This document shows, one piece after another, positions 27,173-31,041 of a DNA stretch of 64,000 bases; positions within the stretch are counted from its first letter, which is position 1, and the number at the start of each line of letters is the position of its first letter. The stretch is from Phormidium tenue FACHB-886 (GTDB lineage: Bacteria; Cyanobacteriota; Cyanobacteriia; Elainellales; Elainellaceae). The stretch covers positions 124,001-188,000 of the forward strand of contig NZ_JACXWX010000001.1 in the NCBI RefSeq assembly GCF_014764505.1. Direction: 5' to 3'. A program made the translations under genes and the position numbers. The notes below the pieces were generated by a model. The model was not told the DNA's origin. It saw only the letters and a list, made by a program, of their open reading frames with translations, and made no database searches.

Positions 27173-27832
27173 CTAAGGCAGACTTGGAGCTGAACCTGTA
27201 TTGCCTCTTGGAGCAGAAGAGGGGGCAGTGGAGCTACCAGATGGAGCAGGCGCTAGCCCTGCGGGTTGATTTAGAGGACTGGTGGAGCTGCCAGGAGATA
27301 AACCCGGCAAGGTGCTAGGCAAGGGCGCAGGTGGATTTGTTCCGCCCAGCCCAGAGCTAGGATCGGGTAGAAATTCGCTGTTGCCTAAACCGGGAACCGT
27401 TTCACCTGGGGCAGTCGTGGGTACAGTGGTGCCGGGTAGTGTTGCCAATGCCACCCGATCGCCCCCTACTGCCCGAATCTGATCCAGGACATAAACCACG
27501 TCGTTGTAGCTAGCAGCGCGCGAGGCATACAACACGATCGTTCCTTCTGGGCTTGCCTGCCGGAAGTTACCCACCGCCTGAAAGAGCTGCTCTGGCGAAA
27601 CGGGCTGCTTCTCAACGTAGATCTGCCCAATGGGGTCAACAGTGATGATCAGCAGCTTTCGCATCTGCGCTGCGGCTGAGGCTGCCTTGGGCAGATCCAC
27701 ATTAATTGCAGTCTGACGAGTCAGCGTTACCGCTGCCAATATGAAGAAGGTCAGGATGCAAAAGATGACATCGATCAGCGGCACAATGTCGATTCGGACT
27801 TCGGGTTCAGGAGAGTCGAAGTTAAGTTTCAT
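27173..27832 (-). CDS. ExbD/TolR family protein with long Pro/Ser-rich tail
   Basis: A 219-residue inner-membrane protein that works with an ExbB/TolQ-like partner as a proton-driven motor. The N-terminal helix (residues about 15-37) carries the key Asp in PLIDVIFCILTFFIL. The periplasmic domain runs to about residue 135. The remaining 85 residues are rich in Pro, Ser, Gly and Thr (LPSTLPGLSPGSS region), an extension beyond the usual 140-residue length that could span the periplasm. It lies 39 bases downstream of the ExbB gene. No TonB or TolA gene is adjacent, so the final partner is unknown. Confidence 0.9.
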   Translation of the reverse strand: MKLNFDSPEPEVRIDIVPLIDVIFCILTFFILAAVTLTRQTAINVDLPKAASAAAQMRKLLIITVDPIGQIYVEKQPVSPEQLFQAVGNFRQASPEGTIVLYASRAASYNDVVYVLDQIRAVGGDRVALATLPGTTVPTTAPGETVPGLGNSEFLPDPSSGLGGTNPPAPLPSTLPGLSPGSSTSPLNQPAGLAPAPSGSSTAPSSAPRGNTGSAPSLP

Positions 27833-27871: not shown

Positions 27872-28546
27872 TTAGTTTTCTTCAGCGATGATCGGGCTAC
27901 CAGGGCTAAGCTGCCGGTCACGTTGCCATGTGCGTCCTTTGCGGTAGAGCAACTCGATCTCATTGCCCGATTGCCGAAAAATCTTAGCCTGCCCAGAGAC
28001 AAAACTTTGAAACAGGCGATAGAAGGCGAGAGCAGTAATAGCGATAATCAAGCCTGCAGCAGTAGTGATCAGCGCTTCGGCAATACCAAGCGTTGCACCC
28101 GCAGTTGAGTCAGTACCAAGGTCTCCCAGGCGAATAGAGCTGAGGGAGCCAATCAAGCCTAGCACGGTGCCTAGCAATCCCAGCAGGGGAGCAATGGCGA
28201 TCGTCGCTTCCAGCACTTTTTCGCCGCGCCGCATAGTGGCAAGCTCTTCGTCGGCTGTGGCTTGCAGCGCCAGTTGGAACACTTCTGGATCGGGGTTGTC
28301 CAGCTCTAGCGCTGAATAGAGAAACCTCCCAATCGGCTGATTGCTGGACTTTCGAGCAATTTCGGTGGCAGCATCCCAATCGCGCCGTGCTGCCTCCAAA
28401 ACCCGACCCGCAATCTCGCGATCGTGGGTGAGAATTTTTGACCAAAACCAGGCACGCTCAATAATGGTACTAAGCGCCAAAAACGATAAGAGCAGCAGGG
28501 GCCACATGGCGATGCCGCCCCTAGCAAACAGGTCAGAAATATTCAC
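27872..28546 (-). CDS. MotA/TolQ/ExbB proton channel family protein
   Basis: A 224-residue inner-membrane protein with three helices: about 10-30 (GIAMWPLLLLSFLALSTIIERAW), 115-140 and 152-175. The MotA/TolQ/ExbB core APLLGLLGTVLGLIGSL and the proton-channel helix EALITTAAGLIIAI are clear. It forms a channel complex with ExbD/TolR to power outer-membrane transport or envelope integrity. It is the first gene of the exbB-exbD pair. The charged C-terminus is cytoplasmic. Whether it serves siderophore/vitamin uptake or a Tol-like role cannot be told from sequence. Confidence 0.92.
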   Translation of the reverse strand: MNISDLFARGGIAMWPLLLLSFLALSTIIERAWFWSKILTHDREIAGRVLEAARRDWDAATEIARKSSNQPIGRFLYSALELDNPDPEVFQLALQATADEELATMRRGEKVLEATIAIAPLLGLLGTVLGLIGSLSSIRLGDLGTDSTAGATLGIAEALITTAAGLIIAITALAFYRLFQSFVSGQAKIFRQSGNEIELLYRKGRTWQRDRQLSPGSPIIAEEN

Positions 28547-28944: not shown

Positions 28945-29085
28945 TTAGCCAGAAGTGCGGCGGACGTGGTCCATAATTTGCCGTTTCCGATCGTCTGTCA
29001 ATCTTGTACTCGGCTTGACAAACTCATTAGTGGTGCGAGCCAAATGCTCCATAATTCGCTTTTTGCGATCGTCGGAAGTTGCCAT
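28945..29085 (-). CDS. 46-aa protein built from two DDRK repeats
   Basis: A 46-residue basic protein starting MATSDDRKKRIMEHLARTT. The block SDDRKKRIMEHLARTT (residues 4-19) recurs as TDDRKRQIMDHVRRTS (30-45), joined by NEFVKPSTRL. Each block would form a short amphipathic helix, suggesting a small adaptor or nucleic-acid/protein-binding peptide; this is inference. The internal symmetry argues strongly that the frame is translated. It stands alone, divergent from the ABC exporter, and has no strong ribosome site. I do not recognise a named family. Confidence 0.62.
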   Translation of the reverse strand: MATSDDRKKRIMEHLARTTNEFVKPSTRLTDDRKRQIMDHVRRTSG

Positions 29086-29223
29086 AGGGACAATGAAGGG
29101 AAAACCAGTAGAACTCTTCTATTGTAAAGAGGTGTAAACCGAATTCCAACACTTCTTACCCTTCTTAGCAAGGGACTCCGCTTGCCGCTCCTCTGTTGCC
29201 TGCCTCACGCTATCCTGGTACGC

Positions 29224-31041
29224 ATGAACCCTACCTCCCAGTCGCAGCTCCGCCGTTTTCTCACCCTCTTTCAATACTCTCCCCGTGCTCTGCAGCTTGT
29301 TTGGACAACCGATCGCCGTATCACCGTTGCTTTGGCAATTTTGACAGTTGTGGCAGGTCTGCTGCCGGGTGTAGTGGCTTATCTCGGCAAGCTGATTGTG
29401 GATGCGGTTGTGCAGGCAGCACAGACAGGACTAGAGCCCGATCGTTGGCAGGCGCTGGAGTATCTGGGGTTTGAGGCAGTTGCTGTGGCGCTGCAGTCAG
29501 GCTGCCAACAGGGCATTGCGCTCTGTACTTGGCTGCTGCGGGTGCGACTAGGGCATACAGTGAATCTGCTGATTTTGCAGAAGGCGTTGACGTTGGATAT
29601 GGCGCATTTTGAGGACTCAGAGTTTTACGACAAAATGAGCCGCGCCAGACGAGAAGCCTCCACGCGTCCGCTGAGTTTAGTCACGCGCACCTTTGGAATC
29701 ATCAAAGATTCTCTATCGATCGTTGCCTTTGGCAGTTTGCTGCTGCAGTTTTCGTTTTGGGCGGTGCTGCTGCTGCTGTTGGCAGCGATTCCAGCCTTCA
29801 TCTCAGAAACACGGTTTGCTCAGGAAGCCTTTCGCCTGTTTCGCTGGCGCACACCCGAAGCAAGAGAGCAGCAATACCTGGAGGTACTGCTCACCAATGA
29901 CACTTACGCGATGGAGGTGAAGCTGTTTCAGCTTGGAGAGACCCTATTGAACCGCTACCGCGCGATCTTCGACCGCCTCTATGAGGAAGACCGCGATCTA
30001 ACAGTGCGGCGCAGCATTTGGAGCTATTTGCTCAGCTTGATTAGCACTGCAGCTTTCTATGCCACCTATGTCTGGATTGTGTTGGAGGCAATCGTCGGAC
30101 GGATTTCGCTAGGAGATTTGACGATGTATTTGGTGGTGTTTCGGCAAGGGCAATCCACCTTTGCTTCCATCCTGACGGCAGTAGGCGGCATGTACGAAGA
30201 TTCGCTGTACCTGGCAACCCTATACGAATTTTTGGAAGAACCTGTTCCAGAGCCGTCAGGCTATGCCACCTACGGTAGCCAGCCAGATGCCGGGCTGCGA
30301 TTTGAGAATGTCTCGTTTACCTATCCTGGCAATACTGAGCCTGCTTTGCAAAATGTCTCTTTCCATTTACAGCCTGGAGAGAAATTAGCGATCGTTGGCA
30401 AAAATGGCTCTGGCAAAACAACGCTGATCAAGCTGCTAACACGGCTTTATACACCAGATAGCGGGCGGATTCTGCTGGACGGGCGTAACTTAGAGGACTG
30501 GGACATTGATGTTCTGCAGCGGCGGATTGGCGTGATCTTTCAGAATTTTGTGCGCTACCAGTTCAAAGTTGGTGAAAATGTTGGCGTGGGCGACGTCCAG
30601 CATCTAGAGGAGCAGCCACGCTGGGAAGATGCCACTATAAAAGGGACAGCGCGATCGTTTATTGATGATTTACCGCAAGGCTTTCAGACGCAGCTCGGCA
30701 AGTGGTTCAAAGCTGGACGCGAGCTGTCGGGGGGGCAGTGGCAAAAGATTGCGCTATCACGGGCATTTATGCGATCGGCTGCCGATATCCTGGTGCTAGA
30801 CGAACCTACCTCTGCAGTGGATGCTGAAGCTGAAGTGGAAATCTTCAACCAGCTCCGCGCCGTGACGCAGCACCAGATGGCAATTCTGATCTCGCACCGC
30901 TTTTCAACCGTGCGAATGGCAGATCAGATCGTGGTTATGGAGAATGGAAAAATTCAGGAACGCGGTACCCATGAAGAGCTACTTAAAGCTGGCGGGCAGT
31001 ATGCCCGCTTATTCGCGCTTCAGGCGGCAGGATATCGTTAA
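29224..31041 (+). CDS. ABC exporter (fused membrane and ATPase domains)
   Basis: A 605-residue half-transporter of the ABCB/MsbA-like group that works as a homodimer in the inner membrane. The membrane domain (about 1-330) has six helices. The ATPase domain has Walker A GKNGSGKT (about 399-406), Q-loop IFQNF, signature LSGGQWQK (about 512) and Walker B ILVLDEPTSAVD (about 532), followed by the H-loop ISHRFST. The start MNPTSQSQ is preferred over an upstream in-frame TTG. Substrates may be lipids, peptides or drugs. A very long palindrome follows about 50 bases downstream. Confidence 0.92.
   Translation: MNPTSQSQLRRFLTLFQYSPRALQLVWTTDRRITVALAILTVVAGLLPGVVAYLGKLIVDAVVQAAQTGLEPDRWQALEYLGFEAVAVALQSGCQQGIALCTWLLRVRLGHTVNLLILQKALTLDMAHFEDSEFYDKMSRARREASTRPLSLVTRTFGIIKDSLSIVAFGSLLLQFSFWAVLLLLLAAIPAFISETRFAQEAFRLFRWRTPEAREQQYLEVLLTNDTYAMEVKLFQLGETLLNRYRAIFDRLYEEDRDLTVRRSIWSYLLSLISTAAFYATYVWIVLEAIVGRISLGDLTMYLVVFRQGQSTFASILTAVGGMYEDSLYLATLYEFLEEPVPEPSGYATYGSQPDAGLRFENVSFTYPGNTEPALQNVSFHLQPGEKLAIVGKNGSGKTTLIKLLTRLYTPDSGRILLDGRNLEDWDIDVLQRRIGVIFQNFVRYQFKVGENVGVGDVQHLEEQPRWEDATIKGTARSFIDDLPQGFQTQLGKWFKAGRELSGGQWQKIALSRAFMRSAADILVLDEPTSAVDAEAEVEIFNQLRAVTQHQMAILISHRFSTVRMADQIVVMENGKIQERGTHEELLKAGGQYARLFALQAAGYR

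Follow-up and report, generated by a model that had tools for sequence, protein, structure and literature searches.

The window, that is the whole stretch of 64,000 nucleotides that was analysed, contains at 28945-29085 of the minus strand a frame with an ATG start, 46 codons and a stop codon, whose product is MATSDDRKKRIMEHLARTTNEFVKPSTRLTDDRKRQIMDHVRRTSG. This small gene is isolated, with a divergent ABC transporter gene on one side and exbB/exbD on the other, recognised with Pfam, and the features of the locus are the following.

27872-28546 and 27173-27832, minus strand: exbB/exbD (Pfam)
28945-29085, minus strand: gene of the 46-residue protein, with its stop codon at 28945-28947 (homologues and purifying selection)
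28954-28989, minus strand: copy 2 of a 12-residue helix unit, residues 33-44, RKRQIMDHVRRT (alignment and per-column counts; predicted helix 27-44)
28990-29031, minus strand: variable linker, residues 19-32 (column entropy)
29032-29067, minus strand: copy 1 of the 12-residue helix unit, residues 7-18, RKKRIMEHLART (alignment and per-column counts; predicted helix 4-22)
29121-29149, minus strand: possible promoter TTGGAA-17-TACAAT (consensus match only)
29224-31041, plus strand: ABC transporter (Pfam)

A preliminary description had proposed that the frame is really coding and consists of a 16-residue helical motif repeated at a 26-residue interval. The repeat is borne out: SDDRKKRIMEHLARTT (residues 4-19) returns as TDDRKRQIMDHVRRTS (residues 30-45) at an interval of 26 with 9 of 16 positions identical, and the best ungapped self-match of the protein scores 56, a value reached by none of 20000 shuffles (mean 16.0, sd 3.5, maximum 39). 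The gene is single copy in its own 8.9 Mb genome, since the next match to the protein there has an E-value of only 1.9. The protein is very basic, with a pI of 10.8, and across 76 family sequences the median pI is 10.6 and the lowest 5.8.

Relatives were found at E<1e-6 in 26 of the 36 genomes searched at the level of the order, its own genome counted, and a profile of 47 sequences, run against 388 genomes of the class, had matches at E up to 0.05 in 138, with a best E of 1e-3 or lower in 128 of these. The weakest of these class-level matches should not be counted, because only 12 of the 20 border loci that we inspected for weak profile matches hold members, whereas the other eight (G094, G065, G046, G354, G594, G108, G137 and G114) miss the two-unit layout and were rejected, G594 being a false match despite its E-value of 2.9e-4. 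The small gene also went undetected in many near-complete genomes. Among genomic contigs, the peptide patterns hit 184 stretches, of which 48 encode relatives, 47 under titles whose genus names we take to be cyanobacterial and one under the title of Candidatus Gracilibacteria. This last contig (L079) carries a three-unit member, and judging from sequence it is probably a misbinned cyanobacterial contig, since about 7.0 of its 12.0 kb are 84-92% identical at the DNA level to a Hydrococcus locus (L078). A draw of 386 genomes from the phylum gave 34 matches, all in the same class or in the genome itself and including the two non-members G354 and G594, but it is a weak test outside the class, since the misses listed (20 of 352) were all of that same class. 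Matches in plasmids (six records, E 0.2-5) and phages (one record, E 3) did not amount to relatives, and none of 39 pattern matches in viral contigs was confirmed as one. When a single-unit profile was run against 145 genomes for larger proteins containing the unit, small frames were found, and frames longer than 180 aa gave scattered, weak matches (best E 0.0056); the one in G290 is by eye a coiled-coil/TPR-like protein and was discarded.

In 28 overlapping pairs of relatives (29 had been planned, and L067 was left out, its protein being identical to that of L068) the pooled pN was 0.082 and the pooled pS 0.490. The dN/dS ratio was between 0.009 and 0.275 in 25 of these pairs, which partly share a member and so are not independent, and dS was saturated in the remaining three. 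The frame is short and antisense frames overlap it, as might be expected of a chance open frame; the homologues among cyanobacteria and purifying selection in the same frame, with a dN/dS far below one, refute that explanation, to which we leave practically no probability. The coding claim thus holds, both conditions that the preliminary description had set for its refutation having failed, and it is nearly certain that the 46-residue frame is a real, conserved gene.

The gene had also been described as assignable to no known family, and our searches agree with this. The window protein had no match in NCBIfam and reached at best 12.2 bits in Pfam, against a cut-off of 25, its sole match there being the SpeFL leader peptide (PF10940) over 10 residues, an identity that we rejected as chance level (E 0.17). 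For the other 44 members the best E-values, which are the only measure considered here, were 0.0037 in Pfam and 0.045 in NCBIfam, both to unrelated entries. The best match of the 45 members in PHROGs (phrog_2763, of unknown function, E 0.0067, in 8 of 45 members) and the best in PADLOC (E 0.018) were not convincing, nor were the best sequence matches of the window protein or the members in the PDB (E 0.1 and 0.37). As far as sequence searches can tell, then, there appears to be no existing model for this microprotein in Pfam, NCBIfam, PHROGs or PADLOC, and it belongs to a cyanobacterial microprotein family that is patchily distributed and undescribed in the libraries searched. Nothing fitting was found for the unit sequences, or among small or repeated cyanobacterial proteins, in the available portions of the literature (including PMC12475003, PMC11124002 and PMC7760959).

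When 45 members are aligned, the best-kept positions are R7, K8, I11, H14 and S/T18 and, 26 residues on in the second copy, R33, K34, I37, H40 and S/T44, giving each 12-residue unit the core pattern R-K-x-x-I-x-x-H-[LVI]-x-x-[ST]. Of these 45 members 44 retain both His14 and His40, and the remaining one has Arg and Cys; member L125 is without either histidine. The mean column entropy is 3.0 bits in linker residues 20-30 versus 1.3 and 1.2 in the two cores. On a helical wheel the best-kept residues of each unit fall on one side, the entropy profiles of residues 5-19 and 31-45 have a correlation of 0.91, and the conserved faces of the two units over these ranges lie 5 degrees apart. Out of 50000 permutations, 3 attained the joint conservation moment; the count was 98 when the ranges were extended by a residue on both sides and 0 when they were one residue narrower. 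With the ranges tried first (4-22 and 30-45), neither helix on its own gave a significant face test (p 0.15 and 0.11).

The two copies are nevertheless of distinct types. Over the 12 positions, identity is 0.633 among first copies and 0.569 among second copies, versus 0.462 between the copies of one protein and 0.473 between those of different proteins, and copy 1 tends to E, L and A where copy 2 tends to D, V/I and R. This comparison gave no sign of concerted evolution between copies 1 and 2. The duplication of the unit is probably old, with each copy under its own constraints, since the copies are no more alike within a protein than between proteins.

Units were counted with the fixed core pattern, which demands the His, in 94 distinct sequences: 76 from the first collections (E<=1e-5, identical sequences collapsed) and 18 later loci, leaving out L115 (a coiled coil, by hand), L114 (from G354, below the cut) and 12 members from the border loci. 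Two units are present in 82 sequences and three in another 11, and one sequence, L125, has none; L132, counted among the two-unit proteins, has by eye a degenerate third unit. The spacing in the two-unit proteins lies between 25 and 29 in 80 of 82 (26 in 42, 27 in 12, 28 in 11, 29 in 9 and 25 in 6), with outliers at 32 (L100) and 55 (L132). The last pair of the three-unit proteins is 21-27 residues apart and the first unit comes 59-93 residues before the last, mostly behind a Pro-rich stretch. Many of the 76 sequences first collected begin at an internal Met, so that their lengths are minima. What stays constant is the final pair with its distance of about 26 residues, since this spacing is kept in two- and three-unit proteins, and the remote first unit, mostly behind a Pro-rich linker, fits modular units. 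In the three-unit members of group f11 (L110 and L111), units 2 and 3 depart strongly from the usual form, which may reflect a different partner specificity.

The helical nature of the motif, also part of the preliminary description, is supported by AlphaFold2, which predicts helices at residues 4-22 and 27-44 of the window protein (pLDDT 76.5, pTM 0.32) and at 2-21 and 59-99 of a three-unit member (pLDDT 71.2, pTM 0.22). These models support helices but no fixed tertiary arrangement, and the predicted continuous helix over units 2 and 3 would count against a flexible joint in that lineage. It speaks for a reading of the protein as a self-associating peptide whose two helices would form a helical hairpin or short coiled coil, either together or with another molecule; the conserved spacing of the units and the heptad-like pattern R7-I11-H14-S/T18 favour this reading too. 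Just about two hydrophobic residues per unit lie on the conserved face, however, both pTM values are low and the first unit of the three-unit forms is remote, mostly behind its Pro-rich linker, so that we hold self-association to be fairly improbable.

The charge of the protein raises another alternative. Ribosome-associated microproteins place Arg/Lys-rich helices in nucleic-acid grooves, and a small basic protein binding RNA, DNA or the ribosome in this manner would agree with the high pI of the window protein and its family and with the Arg/Lys strongly kept at unit positions 1 and 2. Of the nine sub-threshold PDB matches of the profile, four are to the mitochondrial ribosomal protein mS25, with E-values of 0.83-0.91 that are at chance level. 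On the other hand, the most conserved face holds Ile, His and Leu/Val, more typical of protein docking, the pI falls as low as 5.8 within the family, and the gene goes undetected in many near-complete genomes, unlike a core ribosomal part. Binding to nucleic acid or the ribosome is therefore an unlikely explanation, though one to be taken seriously.

The surroundings of the gene do not point to a partner. The small gene is upstream of exbB/exbD on the same strand, where it could be a leader peptide or regulatory ORF for these genes, but a gap of about 400 bases separates it from exbB and exbB or exbD is nearby in only 10 of 49 loci, with other neighbours elsewhere; this role is largely refuted and appears highly improbable. 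The order of ABC and exbB genes is common to relatives of one group, a gene that we presume from its sequence to be transketolase-like adjoins in 6 of 49 loci, and other loci have lineage-specific neighbours. No neighbour kept across lineages was found in the 49 loci, and the wider set gave the same result. Nine genomes of the order lack a clear small gene, and in all of them the best ExbB match has E<=9.5e-85; in four (G013, G028, G032 and G033) the ABC gene is still beside ExbB and the small-gene profile does no better than E 1.9 there, whereas for the other five the 1.5 kb covered contained no ABC match. The small gene was probably lost in these four genomes, since ABC and ExbB remain side by side. 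ExbB/ExbD and the ABC transporter were rejected as functional partners, as the context is found in one group only and persists without the small gene.

Four of the five loci fetched from group f17 (L101, L102, L108 and L109, all of one genus) have the small gene directly ahead of cutA and in the same orientation, at a distance of 4 bases in L108, which suggests an operon in that genus; in L107, of another genus of the group, the small gene does not precede cutA. CutA too was rejected as a partner, cutA being missing in 3 of 35 chosen carriers, including the genome of the window, and present in 30 of 35 chosen non-carriers.

Docking at two nearby sites explains these facts with the least strain, given the paired like helices, each with one conserved face; it also explains the constant spacing with a variable linker sequence, the occasional third unit, the independence from neighbours and the absence from some genomes. 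The protein probably acts as a small clamp, holding another molecule at two places, and we give an even chance to the reading that it docks both helices onto a protein partner. This stand-alone cyanobacterial microprotein would then be a bivalent helical docking peptide, trivalent in some lineages, in which each 12-residue unit would fold on binding into an amphipathic helix, one side of which would carry R/K, I, H, L/V and S/T. The linker would keep the helices about 26 residues apart, its length mattering more than its sequence, and the two helices would dock at neighbouring, similar sites of the partner, in the simplest case on two subunits of one oligomeric protein, which the microprotein would clamp or cap.

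The preliminary description had already claimed bivalent binding, and this remains reasonable in view of the same conserved face in both copies, the kept spacing and the three-copy relatives. Nonetheless we infer the docking, the bivalency and the protein nature of the partner, and the two copies, being of distinct types without concerted evolution, need not bind identical sites; nothing in the sequences shows that both must fit one such site. A spacing of 25 could also suit one continuous helix with both faces aligned, like the helix 59-99 modelled in the three-unit member, and the very basic charge also suits nucleic acid. Member L125, in which neither histidine is present, and the face tests over the ranges tried first likewise count against the docking reading. 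A more tentative proposal, which we hold with considerable doubt, is that the family is a cyanobacteria-specific class of helical microproteins with two or three heads, which would cross-link or cap a single oligomeric complex of the cell, lineages tuning the valency. If true, this would be an unseen layer of control in these phototrophs.

The family has the repeated short unit and variable linker of multivalent helical linear-motif proteins, with helices that are predicted, and this designates a way of working and not a homology family. Small proteins such as CP12 and the glutamine synthetase inactivating factors IF7 and IF17 work by folding on an enzyme, as is proposed here on binding; to our knowledge tandem like units are not a feature of either, and CP12 is not among the Pfam matches of the 45 members. 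EPYC1 and the N-terminal repeats of CsoS2 string short helical units along a flexible chain, and the present family shares such units but has only two or three. CsoS2 is not among the 24 Pfam families matched by the 45 members. Its family PF12288 was found, among 26 genomes, only in two of group f2, of which G036 shows no small gene and G354 has the match that is not a member; the genome of the window lacks the CsoS2 middle region and the 21 confirmed carriers among the 26 all lack PF12288. A CsoS2-type carboxysome linker was rejected on these grounds, the members having no CsoS2 region.

Small size and restriction to cyanobacteria are shared with Norf1/AtpTheta, a widely conserved, cyanobacteria-specific ATP synthase inhibitor of 48 aa in Synechocystis 6803, according to the available portions of PMC5126843 and PMC9241938. 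Norf1 is acidic, however, with a pI of 3.76 in the accessible text of PMC5126843, against the very basic values of the window protein and its family, and on this comparison, made by description and not by alignment, the identity was rejected. According to PMC5126843, roughly half of the proteins of up to 50 aa predicted in Synechocystis 6803 have yet to be characterised. The present microprotein family is easily recognised, widespread but patchy and under strong selection, and its tandem units make monovalent versus bivalent binding simple to probe.

Upstream of the window gene, the stretch contains two promoter-like sites versus 0.4 expected from shuffles, and TCTTTACAAT at the putative promoter is identical in the window and three close relatives aligned. 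Members from L116-L122, L124 and L129-L131 (group f13 and one of f26) have an altered first unit, for instance KAQIQKHLSLSS, and a second unit that is near canonical. Five loci of group f13 (L116, L117, L118, L119 and L122) have in common a TATATT box and the conserved TAGTGATGATTGCCAGGAT about 40-170 bases upstream of the small gene, together with a strong hairpin followed by T's. Four of these five loci were searched and gave no Rfam match at the gathering threshold; the upstream element may be a small RNA some 100 nt long.
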